From a virus: DNA of 26,029 nt. The notes beneath the pieces were generated by a model. It ran no database searches and was not told where the DNA came from. It saw nothing but the letters and a program-made list of their open reading frames with translations. Made by a program: the position numbers and the translations under genes. Below, one piece after another: positions 4,356 through 26,029 of this stretch. The first letter of the stretch is position 1, and the number at the start of each line of letters is the position of its first letter. The DNA is taken from positions 1 to 26,029 of IMG/VR virus record IMGVR_UViG_3300023215_000715. One strand, written 5' to 3'.

Positions 4356-4757
4356 TCAGCGGCCCAGCTTTTCCATGGCAGCATCAGCCAGGAAAGATGA
4401 CCGGCTCTTGACGTTGTGATCTCGCACGTACCGGTCAATTTGCTGGATCACAAAGCCCGGCAGGGTAACGTTGACCTTCTCGGTTTTCCCCAGGTACGGG
4501 GTGATGTCGATTTCCAGCATTCCCCAGCCCATATCAGCGAAGTCAGGATTACCTCGGTGCGCTGCTGCGCTGGTTGGCATTGGGATGGCCTGGCCGTTGC
4601 TTGCGATCTCTTCCAGCATGATATGAGCGACCTCGACAGCGGAGGAATATGCCTCCTCGAAGGTGTCGCCCGCAGTTACAGCGCCTGGAATATCAGGGAT
4701 CTGGATGCCGGTGGCGGTGTTCTCGTCGCCCCATTCGATGCAGATTGGGTATTGCAT
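4356..4757 (-). CDS. hicB: HicB-type antitoxin
   Basis: 133 residues on the minus strand. Its ATG is preceded by GGAGAG and lies 37 bases after the hicA stop. The N-terminal HicB-like partial RNase H fold (about 1-60) is seen in MQYPICIEWGDENTATGIQIPDIPG followed by DTFEEAYSSAVEVAHIMLEE. A linker follows, then a C-terminal ribbon-helix-helix DNA-binding domain (VNVTLPGFVIQQIDRYV, about 95-111, and SSFLADAAMEKL). Known for the family: HicB binds and neutralises HicA and represses its own operon through the C-terminal domain. The inverted repeat at 5016-5053 is the likely operator. The pair is complete and opposite to the phage late operon, as expected of a self-contained moron. Confidence 0.93.
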   Translation of the reverse strand: MQYPICIEWGDENTATGIQIPDIPGAVTAGDTFEEAYSSAVEVAHIMLEEIASNGQAIPMPTSAAAHRGNPDFADMGWGMLEIDITPYLGKTEKVNVTLPGFVIQQIDRYVRDHNVKSRSSFLADAAMEKLGR

Positions 4758-4794: not shown

Positions 4795-4977
4795 TTATTT
4801 CAACCCGGCTCGTTCCTTGATGCTCTTTACCGTGCCGATTGGTAGATCCTTTTTGGGGTGTGGCACTGGTATCGAGTTTGGGTTGTTGGGGTGCTTGAAG
4901 ATGTGGTGGCTTCCGGTGACACGTTTCAGAACCCATCCAGCTGCTTCAAGCTCCTTGATCAACTGCCTGCTTTGCAC
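4795..4977 (-). CDS. hicA: HicA-type mRNA interferase toxin
   Basis: 60 residues, the usual length for HicA, starting at a GTG (4975-4977) with GGAG nine to ten bases upstream. It has the complete double-stranded RNA-binding-like fold signature: LIKELEAAGWVLKRVTGSHH, the catalytic histidine in GSHHIFKHP (H24), and the family C-terminus VPHPKKDLPIGTVKSI. The toxin cleaves mRNA and stops translation when not held by HicB. It is first in a hicA-hicB operon read leftward from the promoter at 5007-5035. There is no sign of inactivation. In a prophage such a pair may stabilise the element or affect infection by other phages. Confidence 0.95.
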   Translation of the reverse strand: MQSRQLIKELEAAGWVLKRVTGSHHIFKHPNNPNSIPVPHPKKDLPIGTVKSIKERAGLK

Positions 4978-5053: not shown

Positions 5054-5107
5054 GGTTATCTTTGTGCGGGTGCGTTCGCAGCGTTATGCGACAGCGAGGC
5101 GGGAGAT

Positions 5108-5128
5108 GCTGGGGCGTAACTCCCCAGC
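5108..5128. other. Intergenic stem-loop
   Basis: GCTGGGG (5108-5114) and CCCCAGC (5122-5128) form a 7-bp stem with a 7-base loop. No T-run follows, so it is not a standard terminator. It lies between the hicAB promoter and the 5177 element; its role is unknown. Confidence 0.4.
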
Positions 5129-5176
5129 TAAGTCTGGCCAGTGGATTGACTGATAGTCCGCCCGTGAAATTGGCAA

Positions 5177-5238
5177 GCCGGATAAGAACCGGCCACCTGC
5201 ACCCTTTCAAAGGCTCGCCATTTCGGCGGGCCTTTTTC
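5177..5238 (+). repeat. Two-hairpin terminator element, copy C
   Basis: Hairpin 1 is GCCGG (5177-5181) / CCGGC (5189-5193) with a 7-base loop. Hairpin 2 is GGCTCGCC (5212-5219) / GGCGGGCC (5225-5232) with loop ATTTC and five T residues: a good terminator. Between the hairpins, CACCTGCACC matches CATCTGCACC in copy A. The GGAGC just after it serves as ribosome-binding site for the gene at 5255. Confidence 0.75.
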
Positions 5239-5254
5239 GTATCTGGAGCACGAT

Positions 5255-5719
5255 ATGCCCGAGCAGATTCTCGCCAAGCTGGACGCCATTCAGACCACCA
5301 TCGCCAGTCTCCGCGCCGAGTTAGGCGGATTGCATGCACAGGTATCGACAAAAGCGGACGGCACCGCTGTCTCTTCGCTGACGAACACAGTTACCGCCCA
5401 AGGCAGCTCAATCACCACCCTGTCGAGCAGGATCGCTTCGTCATGTGATTGCAGCAAGGCTGCCGCCACGGCAGAGAGTGCTCTCGATACGACTCGTATC
5501 CAAACTCACAGTGCCTTCATCATTGTCGGTGGCCGGGTGTACATCAACGAAGCTGCCCTCGAGTCAGCATTCATTCGGACTGAAGTGTCTGCGCGGGCGA
5601 AGGCTGATGCCGCGATAGCCAGCGCTGAGCGCTTCAGCATCGACGATGGCGTGGCCAACACCATCCGCCAAGTAATCCGCGACGAGCTGAAGCCCGGCGG
5701 AATGCTGCATCGCGGCTGA
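5255..5719 (+). CDS. Small protein resembling the C-terminal part of J-type tail-tip proteins
   Basis: 154 residues, ATG with GGAG eight bases upstream. The N-terminal third is a coiled coil (ILAKLDAIQTTIASLRAEL). The stretch KADGTAVSSLTNTVTAQGSS followed by ITTLSSRI, and the later IIVGGRVYINEAAL-ESAFI, look like the DUF1983-type linker and beta segments at the C-terminal end of lambda J-like proteins. A charged helical tail follows (SARAKADAAIASAERF...IRDELKPGG). No signal peptide or membrane span is seen. It sits between the terminator of copy C and the holin-like genes, far from the tail operon. It could be an excised J tail reused as an accessory protein, or a fibre-like moron. The J resemblance is from memory of the family; the function is unknown. 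Confidence 0.6.
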   Translation: MPEQILAKLDAIQTTIASLRAELGGLHAQVSTKADGTAVSSLTNTVTAQGSSITTLSSRIASSCDCSKAAATAESALDTTRIQTHSAFIIVGGRVYINEAALESAFIRTEVSARAKADAAIASAERFSIDDGVANTIRQVIRDELKPGGMLHRG

Positions 5720-5733
5720 GGGAGACAGGCGAA

Positions 5734-5934
5734 GTGACCACCTACCGCGAATATCGACGCCGCAACAAGTACCGTTTGTGCATGAACGACGAAATCCATG
5801 ATCAGCTGGGCCGGGCAACTCCATTTGAGGGCGCCAAAATCCGAGCCTCCCGCAAGAAGTACTTGCTCAAGTTGTTCAAGTACAAGCGGCGAGCCAAGGG
5901 CATTAAGAATTCACCAGTGAATCGGAGCAACTGA
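5734..5934 (+). CDS. Small basic hypothetical protein, 66 aa
   Basis: 66 residues from a GTG with a GAGGGAGAC ribosome-binding region; the stop overlaps the ATG of the next gene (TGATG). It is very basic (YREYRRRNKYR, RASRKKYLLKLFKYKRRAKG) with no membrane span, which suggests nucleic-acid or membrane-surface binding. The tight coupling to the holin-like gene argues that it is real. Not recognised. Confidence 0.6.
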   Translation: MTTYREYRRRNKYRLCMNDEIHDQLGRATPFEGAKIRASRKKYLLKLFKYKRRAKGIKNSPVNRSN

Positions 5935-6305
5935 TGGACCCGACCGACCTCGGCCCAGGCACAGCCACCTGGCTGGGCGGAACGGGCACTGTATTGCTGG
6001 GCGGCTTTTTGTGGCTGCGTAAGTTCCTCTCGAAGGATGCCGCTGACCGTGCCATGGACAATGCCGACATAGGCACCGTCCGCCGGCTGAACGAACTGCT
6101 CGACTCCGAGCGCGATGCTCGTAAGCAGGCCGAAGCCCGTGCCGATCAGTTCGCTAAGGAGCGAAACGACCTCATGGCCACCGTTGGCCGCCTTGAGGGC
6201 AAGATCGAAGCCCTGACGGGGCAGGTCGGCCAGCTCTCCAAGCAGGTCACCGCCCAGAGCGAGGAGATCGCCCGCCTGCGCGGAAAGCTGGGAGGTAATT
6301 CCTGA
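5934..6305 (+). CDS. Holin-like membrane protein with coiled-coil tail
   Basis: 123 residues from an ATG with GGAG six bases upstream. A short polar N-terminus is followed by one membrane segment (about 12-28, ATWLGGTGTVLLGGFLWL) and then a long charged coiled coil (about 40-118; ERDARKQAEARADQFAKERND, LEGKIEALTGQVGQLSKQV). Proteins of this shape in Pseudomonas prophages sit beside packaging genes and are annotated variously as holin-like or chemotaxis-like; the holin role is inferred from position and topology only. Its first 50 or so bases are echoed by the remnant at 4266. The stop overlaps the next start. Confidence 0.6.
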   Translation: MDPTDLGPGTATWLGGTGTVLLGGFLWLRKFLSKDAADRAMDNADIGTVRRLNELLDSERDARKQAEARADQFAKERNDLMATVGRLEGKIEALTGQVGQLSKQVTAQSEEIARLRGKLGGNS

Positions 6306-6634
6306 TGGACAGATGTGCACTTGAGTTCATCGCTCGTCGCTGGTGGCGCCGGGCTGAGATATGGGTCATAGCCTTGGTGTTGATCGCCGGCGGCGCGGTG
6401 CTGGGGTGGCAGTCGGCCTATTGGGCTATGTCCACCACCCAGGCCAACCAGGTGAAGCAGATCCGCGAAGCCTACGACGCCGCCATGACCGAGCGAGACA
6501 AGCGCCTAGATGAGCTGACCAGTAAGGCCGAGAGTGCCGCGACCAAGGCCTCGAAGGCCGCAACCACTGCAACCCAGGCAGCAGACAAGGCTGATGAAGC
6601 ACTCAACCGTGTACAGAGCGAGGAGCGACCGTGA
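6305..6634 (+). CDS. Single-span membrane protein, possible lysis-region partner
   Basis: 109 residues from an ATG with GGAGG nine bases upstream. The N-terminus is positively charged (ARRWWRRAE), followed by one membrane helix (about 19-38, IWVIALVLIAGGAVLGW), giving a probable N-in orientation. A long Ala/Lys/Thr/Asp helix (about 45-100, with SKAESAATKASKAATTATQA) follows, as in an Rz-like spanin or a membrane-anchored coiled coil. No lipobox partner is seen. It may act with the 5934 product, which has a similar layout. Exact role unknown. Confidence 0.6.
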   Translation: MDRCALEFIARRWWRRAEIWVIALVLIAGGAVLGWQSAYWAMSTTQANQVKQIREAYDAAMTERDKRLDELTSKAESAATKASKAATTATQAADKADEALNRVQSEERP

Positions 6635-17299: not shown

Positions 17300-20200
17300 A
17301 TGGCAGATTCAGACATCCAGGGGATGCTGGTCCGTATTGAAGCGACCACTGCTCAGCTTCGCTCTGAAATCGCTAGAGCTGAGTCCACTGTTGCCCAAGG
17401 TGCCACGGCGATAGACCGCGGCCTTGCTCGAATTGACGAGAGCTTTGATCGGGCGGGGGAGAGCGCCCAGAGTGCAGGCGCACTGATCAAGAATGCTCTT
17501 GCCGTGGCGGTGGGCGCTGCCTCAGTTCGTTCCATTATCGATGTCGCCGACTCCTACTCACAGATGTCGGATCGAATGGGGCTCGCGACCTCCAGCGTTA
17601 ACGAATACAACCTGGTGCAGGACAGGTTGCTAGATACGGCCAAGCGCACTTATCGCCCCCTGAATGAAGCCCAAGAGCTGTACATCCGGACGGCAGACAG
17701 CCTCAAGTCCATGGGGTACAACACCAGCGAAGCGCTGGATGTGATGGACAGTTTCAGCTTCCTGCTTGTGACCAACTCGGCCAGCACTGACAAAGCAGCC
17801 TCTGCGATCGATGCATATTCCAAAGCGCTGCAGACCGGTAAGGTCGAGGCAGATGGTTGGCAGTCGATCCTAGCGGCGATGCCGACCATCGTAGACACCC
17901 TAGCCAAAGCGACCGGCAAGAGTGCTGAGGAGATCCGCTCTCTGGGTGCAGTAGGCCAGCTCAGTCTGGATGTCCTCACCGAGGGCTTGCAGAAGTCGGC
18001 ACAGGCAAACGGTGAACTGGCCGACAGCATGGGCGTAGCGGTTCGTGATGCACTGCAGAATTTAAGCAATGCTTTCTCCGTCTACATTGGTCGCCTGAAT
18101 GAGACCACTGACGGAACGGGGGTTCTGGCCCAGGGCATCAGTGTCATCGGAGATAACTTCGAATCGCTTGCCAACGTCGCTGGTGTTGTAGCTGTGGGGG
18201 CGCTTGCGGGGTACGCCCGAAGTCTGGCGGGCAGTGCCGCAGCGTCACTTGCGGCGACTAGGAGCGCTATCTCGGACGCCATCGCACGGAAGGCCCAGGC
18301 GACCGCTGTGTTTCTTGCTGCGCAGGCTGAGCAGCAGAAGGCTCAGACAGCTGTGTTTCTGGCCGAAAAAGAGGCTATTGCTGCTCGCGGCACTGCTGTG
18401 CAAACCCAGATGTCGCTGCAACTCGCTGAGGCGCGGATGCTCGAAACCCGAGCAACGAACGCTGTCGCTGCTGCGCAAGCGACGGTTAGCCGGGCCTCTC
18501 TTGGAGTCATGGGCGTGCTCGGTGGCCCTGCGGGTATCGCCGCCCTGGCCATTGGTGCGGCAACAGCTTTCCTCACGCTGCGGGACAATACGAGTGTCCT
18601 TGAGCAGAAGCTTGGCGATCTCAACGATCCAATAGATAAGCTGGTTGAGCGCTTCAACAAGCTGAACCGGGCCACCCAATCAGTCACACTTCGCGAGCTC
18701 AAGGCCTCGATTGAGGACGCCGAAAGCGAGCTGACGACTGCCGCCGGGTCCATTGCGTTCGAGTTCCAGAGCAGCCTAACTAATGCCGGGCTGGCTGGCG
18801 CTGCTGGATTCATGGGAGGAATCGCGCCTCTTCCTGCCGAGTTCCAAGCAGCAATGGAAATCGTGAAGAAGGCATCAGCTGATCAGGCTGATGGTATGGC
18901 TGTTGACTGGAAGGAGGTAGCTGATCGAATCAGGGAGGTGCCAGGTGTCACCTCTGAAATGGCTGATGCGCTTGAGGAAAGTGGTGGGGCAGCAACTGAG
19001 AAGGCTGAGGTAATCAACCGGCTCAAGGAGGCCATGGCTGAGCTGACGGGTGAAACTGACGCCAATACGAAAGCAGAAAGGCAGAACGCGGCGGCCAGGG
19101 CGACCGCCGCCCAAGAAACCCAGAAGTACCTTGATCAACAGCTTAAACAGCTAGCCTCAGCACAGGACAAGACCAACACCGATGCTGCCAAGCGCTACAT
19201 CGCTGAAAGAACCGACCTTACGGAAGGTGAAAAGGCTGCGATCCTTTCAGTTGCGGCGGCACGAGATGCCCAGAAGAGAGCCGACGACGACGCCACCAAC
19301 GCGCGCCGAAAGGGATCGTCTGAGGCAGAGCAGTCCGCCAAGAAACGGCTGAAGGAATTCGAGTCCGCCGAGGAAGGCTACAAGCGGCAAATTCAGCTGA
19401 TCAACACCACCGGCGACAAGCAGAAAGACGCCACAGAGGTAGCGAAGCTGTCCTTCGAGCTGCAGGAAGGCAAACTGGGCAACCTGTCTCAGGCCCAGCA
19501 GAAGCACTTGCTCGGTTTGGCCGCCGAGCTGGACTCCCTGAACAAAATCAAGAAGGCCAATGAGGACGCCCTGAAGCTCAGCGCGTTCAAGGCGGCCCAG
19601 GCCACGGGCACTCAAACCGCGATCAATGGCTACGACCAAGAGCTCGCTGGCATTGGTCGAGGAGACAAGGCCCGCGATCGAATGCGGGCTGACCTCGCGT
19701 TGCGTCAGAAGTACGTTGAAGATCTCAATGAGCTGAACGAGCAGCGCAACACCGGGCAGATCAGCCCGGAGCTGTACCAGCAGGAAACGCAGGTGCTCAC
19801 CGACGAACTCAACAAGCGTCTGGCGGCCCAGCAGAACTACTTCCAGCGGGTCGATGAAGCTCAGTCGAGCTGGTCGAATGGTGCTACGGCAGCTCTGGAA
19901 AACTACCTCGACAGTGCCGCCGATGTCGCTGGCCAGACGCAGGATCTATTCACAAATGCTTTCAACAACTTGGAAGACGGAGTTGTCCAGTTCATCAAGA
20001 CCGGGAAGGCGTCATTCAAGGATTTTGCAGACGCGATCATCGAGGACCTGATCCGCATCCAGGTGCGCCAAGCCGCTGCAGGGTTCTTAGGTACCGCCTT
20101 CAGCTTCCTCAGTGGGGGCAGTGCGGCACTTGGCCAAGGTACCATGACCGGATTCAGTGAGGTCATTCCCAATGCCAAGGGTGGCGTGTACGACTCGCCG

Positions 20201-20548
20201 AGCCTCTCTGCCTTCTCCGGTGGCGTATACGACAGCCCACAGATGTTCGCCTTCGCCAAGGGGGCGGGTATTTTTGCCGAGGCCGGGCCTGAAGCAATTC
20301 TGCCGCTTCATCGGGGGCCGGATGGTTCGCTTGGGGTCATGGCCGCCGGGGCTGGAGGTGGTGGCGGGGAGTCGTCGATCACCTTCGGCGGAGTCACCCA
20401 ACACATCCAGGTTGGCGGGCAAGCCAATGCCGCCACCATCGCCGATGTTCGGCGAGCTGCTGAGCAGGGCGCGCGGGATGGCTACGAGCTGATGCTGCGA
20501 GACTTCAAGACCAACGGCGCCGGGCGGCAGATGCTGCAGCGGCGGTAA
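17300..20548 (+). CDS. Tape measure protein
   Basis: 1082 residues. After an N-terminal coiled coil (MLVRIEATTAQLRSEIARAE) comes the conserved tape-measure N-terminal domain (about 70-265): VADSYSQMSDRMGLATSS, LYIRTADSLKSMGYNTSEAL, KALQTGKVEADGWQSILAAM and LGAVGQLSLDVLTEGL. A hydrophobic Ala/Gly stretch (about 285-425) probably forms the membrane-interacting part. Long Lys/Glu/Ala helices follow (about 590-870). A lambda H-type C-terminal domain is seen at FTNAFNNLEDGVVQFIKTGK and DAIIEDLIRIQVRQAA. It sets tail length (about 160 nm if 1.5 angstrom per residue holds) and enters the host envelope on infection. A glycine-rich C-terminal segment follows. Confidence 0.95.
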   Translation: MADSDIQGMLVRIEATTAQLRSEIARAESTVAQGATAIDRGLARIDESFDRAGESAQSAGALIKNALAVAVGAASVRSIIDVADSYSQMSDRMGLATSSVNEYNLVQDRLLDTAKRTYRPLNEAQELYIRTADSLKSMGYNTSEALDVMDSFSFLLVTNSASTDKAASAIDAYSKALQTGKVEADGWQSILAAMPTIVDTLAKATGKSAEEIRSLGAVGQLSLDVLTEGLQKSAQANGELADSMGVAVRDALQNLSNAFSVYIGRLNETTDGTGVLAQGISVIGDNFESLANVAGVVAVGALAGYARSLAGSAAASLAATRSAISDAIARKAQATAVFLAAQAEQQKAQTAVFLAEKEAIAARGTAVQTQMSLQLAEARMLETRATNAVAAAQATVSRASLGVMGVLGGPAGIAALAIGAATAFLTLRDNTSVLEQKLGDLNDPIDKLVERFNKLNRATQSVTLRELKASIEDAESELTTAAGSIAFEFQSSLTNAGLAGAAGFMGGIAPLPAEFQAAMEIVKKASADQADGMAVDWKEVADRIREVPGVTSEMADALEESGGAATEKAEVINRLKEAMAELTGETDANTKAERQNAAARATAAQETQKYLDQQLKQLASAQDKTNTDAAKRYIAERTDLTEGEKAAILSVAAARDAQKRADDDATNARRKGSSEAEQSAKKRLKEFESAEEGYKRQIQLINTTGDKQKDATEVAKLSFELQEGKLGNLSQAQQKHLLGLAAELDSLNKIKKANEDALKLSAFKAAQATGTQTAINGYDQELAGIGRGDKARDRMRADLALRQKYVEDLNELNEQRNTGQISPELYQQETQVLTDELNKRLAAQQNYFQRVDEAQSSWSNGATAALENYLDSAADVAGQTQDLFTNAFNNLEDGVVQFIKTGKASFKDFADAIIEDLIRIQVRQAAAGFLGTAFSFLSGGSAALGQGTMTGFSEVIPNAKGGVYDSPSLSAFSGGVYDSPQMFAFAKGAGIFAEAGPEAILPLHRGPDGSLGVMAAGAGGGGGESSITFGGVTQHIQVGGQANAATIADVRRAAEQGARDGYELMLRDFKTNGAGRQMLQRR

Positions 20549-22578: not shown

Positions 22579-22977
22579 ATGCGAAAGCGCGATTGGACGA
22601 CACAGCTTGCCAACACGATCAAGGCCGCCACCGAGCGGCCTTTTTCATGGGGCGAATTTGACTGCTGCCTGTTCGCCGCCGACTGCGCCCTGGCGGTGTG
22701 CGATGTCGATCCTGCCGAGGCCTACCGAGGCGGCTACACGTCCGAGGCTGGCGCCAAACGCCTGCTGAAGAAGCTGCACGGCTCGTTGGAGGGGGCTTGG
22801 GATGCCTGCTTTGCCCGGATTCAGCCGGGCCTGATTCAGCGGGGTGACATTGCCCTGTACGACGGCCCCAATGGGCGTGGCGTGGCGGTGTTCTGGGCGG
22901 ATGAGTTCTGGTCAGTGTCCCCGGACGGTGTCGGGAGGATCGAGTGTGAGCCGTTGACGGTGTGGAGAGTTGAATGA
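22579..22977 (+). CDS. DUF6950 / NlpC-P60-like tail protein
   Basis: 132 residues. The segment PFSWGEFDCCLFAADCALAV carries the cysteine (C29) where NlpC/P60 peptidases have their nucleophile. GDIALYDGPNGRGVAVFWAD corresponds to the strand where the catalytic histidine would sit, but no histidine is present there. It is therefore likely a non-peptidase or altered member, as is usual for DUF6950. In GTA and HK97-like tails this gene occupies the position of lambda K. It overlaps the J-like gene by ATGA. Confidence 0.82.
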   Translation: MRKRDWTTQLANTIKAATERPFSWGEFDCCLFAADCALAVCDVDPAEAYRGGYTSEAGAKRLLKKLHGSLEGAWDACFARIQPGLIQRGDIALYDGPNGRGVAVFWADEFWSVSPDGVGRIECEPLTVWRVE

Positions 22978-25925
22978 GTTCAGCAGTCAAAAAGGTTGCC
23001 CAGGTCGCCATCGGCGCAGCCATCGGCTTTATCCAGGGCGGCCCATGGGGGGCGGTCGCTGGCGCGGCGATGGCGTTCTATGTCGCCTCCCAGCAGGACA
23101 AGCTCGACACCGGTTCGCTGCGTTCGGGTGAACCCTCCAGCCAGACCCTGCGCTCGTCCAAGGCCGCTGCCCGGTACGTGCTGGGCCGTGTCAGCACCGG
23201 CGGTGTTCTGGCCTGGGGGCAGGAGCAGGCGGGCGACCAAACCGACGGCGAATGGCTGCACATGGTCTATGTGTTGTCGGAGGGGGAGATCGATGCTCTG
23301 GAGCAGATCTTCCTGGGCGAGGAAGTCGTCCAGGCCTATGGCGAGCACGCCAGCTACGAGCTGGTCACCAATCCGACCCAGGTGAATGCCTTCCTCAAGG
23401 CCAATAGCCCGGATTGGCGCGACACCCAGATCGGCTGTGGGCTGTCCTTCGTGCGGCTCTCGTTCAGGTACAGTGCCGAGAAGTACCCCTCCGGTATCCC
23501 GGATGTGCGCTTCGTGCTGCGCGGGCGCCGTGACATCTACGACCCACGGACCCGCACTACCGGTTACAGCGAAAACACCGCGCTGCATATCCTCTGGTTC
23601 CTGCGCAATCGTTGCGGTGTGCCAGATGATGAAATCGTATTTTCCAGTTTCGCCAACAGCGCGAGCGTGTGCGACGAGATGCTGGCCAACGCCGACGGCA
23701 GCACCTCGGCGCGGTACCGTTCGGGCTGCGTCATCGGCGCCGACGAGTCGCGCACCCAGGTGATGCAGAAGCTCGAGGCAGCGTGTGGCGGCAAGCTGAT
23801 CCGCGTTGGCGGCCGTTGGATGCTGCAGGTGGGCGCCTACTACGGCCCATATGACTTCGAGATCACTGAAGACATGGTGGTCGGCACCGTCACCGGGAGC
23901 ACCGAGCCGACCAACGACTCAGCGATCAACACCGTGCGCGGTACCTTTGTGGACCCTTCGCAGGCCTGGGCCGAGACGGACTATCCCGAGGTCTCGGTCA
24001 GCCAGTGGGTGGTGGCCGACGGCGGCGAGGCGGCAGAGACCCTGTCCTTCTCCTACGTCAGCAACCCCTACCAAGCCCAGCGCCTGGCCAACATCGAACT
24101 GCGCCGGCGCCGTGCAGGCGGCACTTTGTCGATCCCCATGAACTTCATGGGCTACAACTGCCGACCAGGCCGCTCGGTGAAGGTCAACTTGCCGTCGCTG
24201 AACATCGTCGGCGAATTCGTCGTCACCGATTGGTCGATGAGCCCCGACAGCGGCTGCAACGTGTCGGTGGCGCAGAACGAGCCGGCGATCTTCGATGACG
24301 CCGTGGGTCAGCCGTACAACCCGATTGGCTTTATCAGCATGCCCACTGGCGGCCTGGGCAGCCCTACCGGGCTAACCTGGTCGACCGAAGACAATGCTGA
24401 GGTGGTCCAGGGTACGTTGGCGTGGGTCGCCCCCAATGGCGTTGTTACAGGTTACGCCATCACGGTGCGTCAGGGCACAGCCGCTGTGCAGGCGCAGCAG
24501 GTACCGGCCACTACGCTCAAACTGCCGCTGTCTGGTCTGCCGTCCGGCAACTACACCATGAGCGTGGCTGCGCTTGGGCCGCTGACCCGCTCGGGAGAAG
24601 CCAGCATCACGGTGAACATCGATGGCCCACCTGTGCCCGAGGCGTGCGTGGTTCAGGCCACCATCGACACCATCACGCTGTACCCGAGCAACACGCTGCA
24701 CGGCCTGAACGGTGGTACTTACGAGTACTTCTATTCGACCGACCCGCAGGCCACCCAAGGCGAGTACCTGGGTCAAGGCCTGACGCTGAACCACACTGGC
24801 CTGGCGTTTGCGACCAACTACGCCTACTTCATCCGCTCCAAGAATGCCTACGGCGTCAGCGCCTTCCTGAAGGTGGTGGCCTCCACGTCCACCGACGTGA
24901 AGACCATGCTTGATGCGCTCAAGGACAAGGTCGAGGGCGGCCAGTTGGCCCCGGTGCTGCGCCAGGAAATTTCGCTGATCTCCGGTCCACCGACTCAGGT
25001 TGGCTCGGTCGCCCAGCGGATCGCCGCTGAAGCAACAGCGCGCGGCCAGCAGATTGCTGCCGAGGCCACGGCCCGCGGCCAGGCCATCGCCGCTGAAACG
25101 ACGGCCCGGAACCAGGCCATTGCCACAGAGGTGGTTGACCGCAACAAGGCGATCGCCGTCGAAACCCAGGCGCGCACCAAGGCGATCAGCGATGAATCTG
25201 CTGCCCGTGCCCAAGGCCTGCTGTCCGAGGCCCAGGCGCGCGGGGCGGCGATCACCAGCGAGGCGCAGGCCCGCCAGTCGGCGGACGAGTCGCTTAGCCA
25301 GAAAATCGACACCGTCACGGCTTCGGCTGGCAACAACGCGGCTGCGATCCAGGCCGAGGCCACTACCCGGGCCAATGCCGACTCGGCGCTGGGTCAGCGT
25401 ATCGATACCGTGGCGGCCAACACCGCCTCGAACGCTGCGGCGATCAGCAACGAGACCACGGCGCGAACCACTGCCGATGCGGCGATGGCCTCCCAGATCG
25501 CGACTCTACGCGCCGAGTCTGGCGGGTACGATCCGGCACTGAACTACGGCTTCGCTTCGACCGTCGAGGGCTGGAGTGGCACGCGCTGCACGCTGGCTGT
25601 CGAGAACGGCAGGCTGATCGTGACCACCGACGGTACTGGTGCTGCATACCTCAACTCACCGGTTGTTTCGCTCAAAGGCCGTGACCATGACCGCATTCGC
25701 TGCCGCATCACCCGGCGCGCGGGTTCGGGCTGGAATGGCCAGGTCACCTACGTTACGGCCAACCACGCTTCGTCTTCGTCGTACCGCAAGTTGATCGCCG
25801 ACCCGGGGCTGGCGGTCGGCCAGACCCTGGTGCTCGAGTGGGACATGTCGCAGTTGACCAACGGTGGCAGCGACTGGTCGGACAGCACAATCACCAGGTT
25901 CTACCTGTGGCTTAGTTCGCAATAA
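22974..25925 (+). CDS. J-like tail tip / host-specificity protein
   Basis: 983 residues. A hydrophobic Gly/Ala segment (about 7-36) may be an I-like membrane-active part. The conserved tip hub domains span about 60-455 (LGRVSTGGVLAWGQEQAGD, WLHMVYVLSEGEIDALEQIF, NTALHILWFLRNRCGVPDDE). Fibronectin III-like domains follow (about 460-640). The coiled-coil shaft (683-770) has eight 11-residue repeats, then 32-residue repeats to about 845. The last domain (about 850-983) is a beta-sandwich of carbohydrate-binding type (YGFASTVEGWSG...LEWDMSQLTNGGSDW). It binds the host receptor. The protein stops right after this domain, where I recall relatives continuing with DUF1983 repeats, and the final bases overlap a converging gene. 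Confidence 0.92.
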   Translation: MSSAVKKVAQVAIGAAIGFIQGGPWGAVAGAAMAFYVASQQDKLDTGSLRSGEPSSQTLRSSKAAARYVLGRVSTGGVLAWGQEQAGDQTDGEWLHMVYVLSEGEIDALEQIFLGEEVVQAYGEHASYELVTNPTQVNAFLKANSPDWRDTQIGCGLSFVRLSFRYSAEKYPSGIPDVRFVLRGRRDIYDPRTRTTGYSENTALHILWFLRNRCGVPDDEIVFSSFANSASVCDEMLANADGSTSARYRSGCVIGADESRTQVMQKLEAACGGKLIRVGGRWMLQVGAYYGPYDFEITEDMVVGTVTGSTEPTNDSAINTVRGTFVDPSQAWAETDYPEVSVSQWVVADGGEAAETLSFSYVSNPYQAQRLANIELRRRRAGGTLSIPMNFMGYNCRPGRSVKVNLPSLNIVGEFVVTDWSMSPDSGCNVSVAQNEPAIFDDAVGQPYNPIGFISMPTGGLGSPTGLTWSTEDNAEVVQGTLAWVAPNGVVTGYAITVRQGTAAVQAQQVPATTLKLPLSGLPSGNYTMSVAALGPLTRSGEASITVNIDGPPVPEACVVQATIDTITLYPSNTLHGLNGGTYEYFYSTDPQATQGEYLGQGLTLNHTGLAFATNYAYFIRSKNAYGVSAFLKVVASTSTDVKTMLDALKDKVEGGQLAPVLRQEISLISGPPTQVGSVAQRIAAEATARGQQIAAEATARGQAIAAETTARNQAIATEVVDRNKAIAVETQARTKAISDESAARAQGLLSEAQARGAAITSEAQARQSADESLSQKIDTVTASAGNNAAAIQAEATTRANADSALGQRIDTVAANTASNAAAISNETTARTTADAAMASQIATLRAESGGYDPALNYGFASTVEGWSGTRCTLAVENGRLIVTTDGTGAAYLNSPVVSLKGRDHDRIRCRITRRAGSGWNGQVTYVTANHASSSSYRKLIADPGLAVGQTLVLEWDMSQLTNGGSDWSDSTITRFYLWLSSQ
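25020..25283 (+). repeat. Eight tandem 33-bp units encoding 11-residue coiled-coil repeats
   Basis: Units read IAAEATARGQQ, IAAEATARGQA, IAAETTARNQA, IATEVVDRNKA, IAVETQARTKA, ISDESAARAQG, LLSEAQARGAA, ITSEAQARQSA. The DNA units differ at many third positions, so they are old protein repeats. An 11-residue period is typical of right-handed coiled-coil fibres. Confidence 0.85.
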
Positions 25926-26028
25926 TCATTTGTTTTATTTTTATCGCTTTTTCAAAGTGATCTAACTTGTGGGTGTGTATCCACCACGTAGCGGCTTGCA
26001 TCATCAGCTCTGGATTGTCGTTTTTATT
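25912..26028 (-). CDS. C-terminal end of an unknown AT-rich minus-strand gene (partial)
   Basis: The minus-strand frame is open from the right edge to the stop at 25912-25914, giving the last 38 residues: PELMMQAATWWIHTHKLDHF, then EKAIKIKQMIIAN. The base composition turns sharply AT-rich just after the J stop, and codons such as AAA, AAT, ATA and TTA dominate, unlike the phage genes to the left. The frame reads as a plausible folded helix-rich protein. Its stop lies 12 bases inside the 3' end of J, so the two genes converge and overlap by 14 bases. It is probably a recently acquired moron. The rest of the gene, and its function, are outside the window. Confidence 0.6.
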   Translation of the reverse strand, partial: NKNDNPELMMQAATWWIHTHKLDHFEKAIKIKQMIIAN

Positions 26029-26029
26029 T

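Follow-up and report, generated by a model that had tools for sequence, protein, structure and literature searches.

A divergent late stand-alone protein from a Pseudomonas-phage family with reversed J tail-tip modules and a tape-measure-like C-terminal tail

The late locus and its first gene

The window—by which we mean the whole 26,029-nucleotide stretch of viral DNA that was analyzed (IMG/VR record IMGVR_UViG_3300023215_000715)—encodes at its late locus a protein of 154 residues, P0001, whose translation contains the stretches ITTLSSRI and GGRVYINEAAL-ESAFI that an earlier note had associated with the end of the tail-tip protein J. The features of this locus are as follows:

5085 to 5250, plus strand: structured late leader (RNA fold z-score of -3.7 versus shuffles)
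5210 to 5237, plus strand: terminator-like hairpin AAGGCTCGCC-ATTTC-GGCGGGCCTT with a T run (RNA fold), its end located about 17 bases 5' of the ATG
5255 to 5719, plus strand: stand-alone protein P0001, 154 aa (ORF call; relatives at the same locus; dN/dS of 0.23–0.48 between relatives)
5258 to 5464, plus strand: predicted N-terminal long helix or coiled coil, residues 2–70 (AlphaFold2, mean pLDDT 66; PHROG 2589 match)
5516 to 5575, plus strand: module B of the J DUF1983 end, residues 88–107 (FIIVGGRVYINEAALESAFI; module-B model, 7.6 bits; within PF09327 residues 78–130; beta hairpin 88–97 in the model)
5645 to 5716, plus strand: constant C-terminal tail T, residues 131–154, ending IRQVIRDELKPGGMLHRG, tape-measure-C-terminus-like (tail-profile matches)
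5734 to 5934, plus strand: 66-aa ORF with no assigned function, conserved in L082, the nearest relative (71 aa there)
5934 to 6305, plus strand: hol-like gene (PHROG 2658, E 1.8e-47)
6305 to 6634, plus strand: small membrane protein of Rz-like type (PHROG 6065; weak matches to Rz-like spanin families)

The gene for P0001, which begins with an ATG and has a Shine-Dalgarno-like GGAG, lies 5' of the hol-like gene with the single 66-aa ORF between the two, and the lysis-type neighbors that had been ascribed to it—a hol-like as well as an Rz-like gene—were indeed found; this position agrees with that expected of the family, namely in the late operon before a holin or hol-like gene, or else inside the tail operon. 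Directly upstream of the late leader, genes for a HicB-like antitoxin and a HicA toxin occupy the minus strand (4356–4757 and 4795–4977). An integrase-family protein (PF00589, E 4.6e-20) is encoded at 948–2315, immediately following a VRR-NUC gene and a short distance ahead of the lysis region, which site is unusual.

The hairpin proper spans 5210–5234 and is followed by the T run. In line with the proposal that the gene stands behind its own terminator, the RNA fold shows a terminator-like hairpin just upstream, one that went uncalled in a simple terminator scan. We take the leader to be that of the late operon, with read-through of the putative terminator. When the window was compared with L082, the DNA at 5064–5665 proved to be replaced, save for a 36-base stretch over the hairpin that was 94% conserved; homology returned inside the tail T, and T and the downstream DNA were 84% identical, which pattern indicates that body and leader were swapped while T and the hairpin were kept. 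No Rfam match was obtained in the window leader, even at an E of 1; the family RF03044 (Proteo-phage-1) was located upstream in the same leader in 12 relatives (L038–L041, L049, L050, L052–L056, and L058, with L087 being a larger stretch of the L038 locus). Proteo-phage-1 is an orphan Rfam RNA family, on which we found nothing in the open literature searched.

Residues 78–130 of P0001 matched the Pfam model PF09327 (Phage_Tail_Tip, DUF1983) with 17.9 bits and an E of 0.0027, a score below the curated cut-off of 22 bits, which threshold the relatives pass with 28–49 bits. The likeness to the DUF1983 end of J proposed earlier is thus real, and clear in the better-preserved relatives, but weak in P0001 itself. 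A module-B model derived from J proteins gave its 7.6 bits on residues 88–107 against a maximum of 3.8 among 1,080 shuffled decoys. In addition, residues 8–62 matched PHROG 2589 (a tail protein; E 3.4e-6), the C-terminal end matched PHROG 18217 and PHROG 13555 (both annotated as of unknown function), and the tail-T model scored 51 bits at residues 131–154. P0001 is composed of a predicted coiled coil, one weak J module (B), and the constant tail; being 154 residues long, with module B alone and without a match to the J hub, the protein is not itself a J, which assignment would call for hub, Ig, or Fn3 domains plus an A-B-C end within one long protein. AlphaFold2 returned helix 2–70, hairpin 88–97, and helices 99–125 and 131–145, at a mean pLDDT too low for further structural reading; the two structure models that we obtained (pLDDT 66 and 46) were both of low confidence. 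No phage record covering 80% of P0001 was present in a collection of 50,697 records, and IMG/VR contained one identical 5.4-kb contig plus ten more loci with relatives. That P0001 belongs, as a divergent copy, to a family of late proteins encoded as separate genes by Pseudomonas phages is well supported.

The J gene and the end of the contig

The idea that P0001 might be the missing C-terminal tail of J had arisen from the J gene of the window, which appeared to end without any DUF1983 region. The features in question are:

22974 to 25919, plus strand: tail-tip protein J, 3' part missing (PHROG 31; continues in L139 and L140)
25920 to 26029, no strand: contig tip of foreign DNA (37% GC) with the terminal part of a minus-strand ORF, 70% identical to an Acinetobacter phage assembly

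The J reading frame as called in the window, 22974–25925, is incomplete. Up to base 25919 the window is 99.6% identical to L139 and 96% identical to L140, in both of which contigs J goes on past that point; the last 110 bases of the window are unrelated DNA, with 37% GC versus a window mean of 61%. The L139 tip (4608–4727, about 120 bases) in turn no longer matches L140. These unrelated ends of 110–120 bases are probably chimeric assembly tips, whose length would correspond to roughly one k-mer, so that genes read at such contig ends mislead. The closest complete J genes, those of L141, L144, and L145 (87–89% identical over the compared stretch), encode proteins that are 729 residues longer than the window J and whose end scores for the DUF1983 modules A-B-C; the related phages Cruim01, phiPSA1, and MR15 also have a J with the full DUF1983 end. 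The J of G009 is 91% identical to that of the window, but is cut by that genome's own contig end. The absence of a DUF1983 region was therefore only apparent, the J being truncated at a chimeric contig end beyond which L139 continues as J; and P0001 is not the lost J tail, since J merely looks tail-less owing to the faulty contig end and is complete in near relatives.

The stand-alone family, its modules, and its tail

Because a strict pattern (A1) found only two loci when scanned over the genome contigs, we used whole-genome profile searches instead. A profile built from nine relatives and run on 398 Pseudomonas-genus genomes matched in 37, in about 25 of them as a stand-alone ORF of roughly 150–430 aa and in the remainder as J itself; that same profile had no match in 273 further genomes of the same class. 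The family already exists as an unnamed cluster, PHROG 18217 (216 aa, annotated as of unknown function), to which Medea1 gp20 (E 9e-73) and Cruim01 gp12 (E 1.2e-68) belong. P0001 shares with that cluster its last 23 residues (E 2.6e-6), and differs in having another body—the coiled coil plus one weak module—without the module C start. Medea1 gp20 (L010 19458–20072) is annotated as 'host specificity protein J' and yet is a stand-alone member, the true J being gp05. Nothing relevant for the stand-alone proteins was found in NCBIfam, and no description of their make-up—reversed J modules plus a tape-measure-type C-terminus—turned up in the libraries and literature searched.

In the 20-kb regions inspected, most members are the first in the late operon, directly 5' of a holin or hol-like gene (the holins being of the Pfam PF05106 and PF16931 families), after which an HNH endonuclease plus the terminase usually follow; the copies of Medea1, Cruim01, G389, and G099 stand between the tail-terminator and tail-tube genes. 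Decayed copies occur in G228 and G318 close to a GH19-type endolysin and mutS- or cinA-like genes, the identities of which genes come from sequence reading. L066 and L104 hold a decayed stand-alone gene with hol-like remnants near such genes, which locus may be that of a tailocin. A PF09327 search over whole genomes revealed, for about 30 stand-alone copies, a full-length J (977–2,548 aa, mostly covering model positions 1–137) 11–30 kb downstream on the same strand; homologs at this locus are thus routine, in about 30 prophages whose full-length J retains its DUF1983 end, which is the outcome that the earlier note had itself named as refuting its idea. The dN/dS between relatives corresponds to purifying selection, and the gene is dispensable, since phiPSA1 and MR15 do without a copy.

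To describe the bodies, we used modules cut from 24 J proteins: A (VKMQ...AAGIGLGIE...SADRFAI), B (PFxVQGGQVFINxAFI), and C (QSxNYVPGxxGWxxxxGxFEIN), for which the top shuffled-decoy scores were 11.4, 3.8, and 7.8 bits, respectively. With the module HMMs, the order was A-B-C in all six J proteins tested; whereas in the stand-alone proteins with two or more modules that order was always C, then B, then A, and never A-B-C. Pfam alone gives the same result—e.g., in G311, model positions 94–126, then 68–100, then 10–70—and the arrangement is a reversal and not a circular permutation. The modules of the PF09327 J end are thus recognizable above the cut-off in the stand-alone relatives (the window copy remaining below), but in reversed order, in a separate gene, and without hub or Fn3 domains. 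A further common insert, VSVEVASWSKYDLPKNAANLLQFM...RLFLSYSRLETEEEL, lies between modules C and B in L097, L099, L101, L065, and others. At the DNA level, some J genes are up to 80% identical to stand-alone genes over 90 bp, and the longest exact match of a stand-alone gene to the J of its own phage is 10–17 bases, an identity too low for a recent split from that J. A simple J fragment was ruled out for P0001 by the reversed module order of the family, the tape-measure-like tail, and this low DNA identity.

The constant part of the family is a 25-residue C-terminal tail, close to [VI]R.V[IL]R.EL.[PQ]GG[LM]L[HWY]R in 28 of the 36 members and lacking in some. When 4,609 distinct ORF ends, drawn from every region retrieved, were searched with the tail-T model, the best match after the family members was the C-terminus of the G001 tape-measure protein (30.0 bits, E 5.7e-8), followed by more tape-measure ends. 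Conversely, a model built from six tape-measure tails only retrieved 25 stand-alone proteins ahead of any other protein, with the window copy at an E of 7e-4, which value became 1.1e-5 with eight such tails. The tape-measure C-termini (PHROG 21688, PHROG 2854) resemble T over the last 20–25 residues—an amphipathic helix, GG, a hydrophobic residue, an aromatic residue or His, and Arg—but the stand-alone proteins have no tape-measure body, and the tape measure of the window itself ends otherwise:

17300 to 20548, plus strand: tape-measure protein, C-terminus FKTNGAGRQMLQRR, of another type than tail T

PHROG 21688 ('function unknown', 127 aa) seems to be a tape-measure C-terminal piece, because its match (E 1.7e-48) falls on the C-terminal end of the tape-measure protein of G001 (L121 6957–10070). 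A pairing of the T type with the type of the phage's own tape measure was looked for and not found, nor was a co-variation of the body with its own J (p 0.08).

Possible roles of the stand-alone protein

That P0001 were the C-terminal J tail, split off and acting in trans—the main idea of the earlier note, in keeping with the weak DUF1983 match and with a window J that stops before that domain—is now hardly credible: the window J breaks off at a chimeric contig end, about 30 prophages have the stand-alone gene plus a complete J, and the module order is reversed, with the window copy retaining a single module; the continuation of J in the sister contigs and its completeness in close relatives refute the split. 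From the choice offered there between a detached part and an accessory or decoy, the lost tail is thus discarded and the relationship to J retained. The mosaic and variable bodies, the decayed copies in G228 and G318, and the stretches of up to 80% identity to some J genes would suit a nonfunctional relic or a reservoir of modules with which J could recombine, but purifying selection, the 10–17-base limit on exact matches to the own J, and the reversed order render that interpretation very improbable; as a DNA-level reservoir it was rejected upon the comparison of stand-alone with J genes. A lysis or late-gene control factor built from tail pieces, whose site before the holin genes behind a structured leader would denote a role in lysis timing, is distinctly unlikely: the position directly 5' of several unrelated holin or hol-like genes, the Proteo-phage-1 RNA in the leader, and the decayed copies beside a GH19-type endolysin near mutS- and cinA-like genes are all consistent with such a factor, but the copies of four phages are located between tail genes, and the sequence content is that of the tail tip.

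Two tail blockers bear on a further alternative. Tai, a prophage accessory gene situated mostly upstream of the packaging genes, blocks tails through the J C-terminal region (PMC11364771), and Tab does so through the tape-measure C-terminus (PMC10884400), which targets are the two places that the stand-alone proteins resemble. The family might then be a tail-assembly decoy that either poisons the tail assembly of competing phages or soaks up such blockers to protect the phage's own tails; J-end modules joined to a tape-measure-like tail, a site upstream of the packaging genes, and a gene that is dispensable, swappable, and unmatched to its own J would all agree with that role. The stand-alone proteins nevertheless carry target-like sequences and are read with the late genes, whereas Tab and Tai are constitutive, each from its own prophage promoter; no PADLOC model, the scope within which a sequence relation to Tai and Tab was compared, was related to the stand-alone proteins; and the copies that Medea1 and Cruim01 have within the tail operon appear to be structural. 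We regard the decoy as unlikely, though it is the chief rival of the explanation that follows.

The explanation that we prefer, at a probability of roughly 0.4, is that of a swappable accessory tail-tip protein that would dock, through T, where the tape-measure C-terminus docks. Readable from the sequences themselves are the family, the module order, the likeness of T, the late-operon position, the full J elsewhere in the same phage, and purifying selection; and the sequence content, the late-operon position, and the tail-operon copies together point to the tail tip. In lambda, the C-terminal helices of the tape measure come together as a trimer within the tail-tip lumen, on gpI and inside gpJ (PMC10721106), and the corresponding helix of Sf11 also lies embedded in its tip (PMC12724387). 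The stand-alone protein would be read as the first late gene, past the leader terminator, and would form a short and probably trimeric rod, whose variable body—a coiled coil plus between one and three beta modules from the DUF1983 end of J, ordered C-B-A—would be joined to the constant T; T might then dock in the tail-tip lumen or hub of the virion, at the site of the tape-measure C-terminus, where the J-like modules would add to or modify the tip. Docking in the phage's own tip is weakened by the other type of its own tape-measure tail along with the lack of pairing with its own J. Also against the accessory tail-tip protein are the dispensability of the gene, the location of most copies beside lysis genes, the members without T, and the low-confidence structure models; no virion proteomics of Medea1 was found in PMC10175458.

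A broader proposal, which we deem unlikely, is that of a widespread class of decoys or tail-tip accessories in which scrambled J receptor-end modules and a tape-measure docking tail are combined in one small late protein under Proteo-phage-1 leader control, which double mimicry would capture or occupy the tip hub, or else the host and prophage defenses acting on that hub. With two recently described blockers that act on the J C-terminal region and on the tape-measure C-terminus, a late protein carrying both kinds of sequence would allow tip docking or decoy action to be tested directly; and the orphan RNA Proteo-phage-1 gains a steady genomic neighbor.
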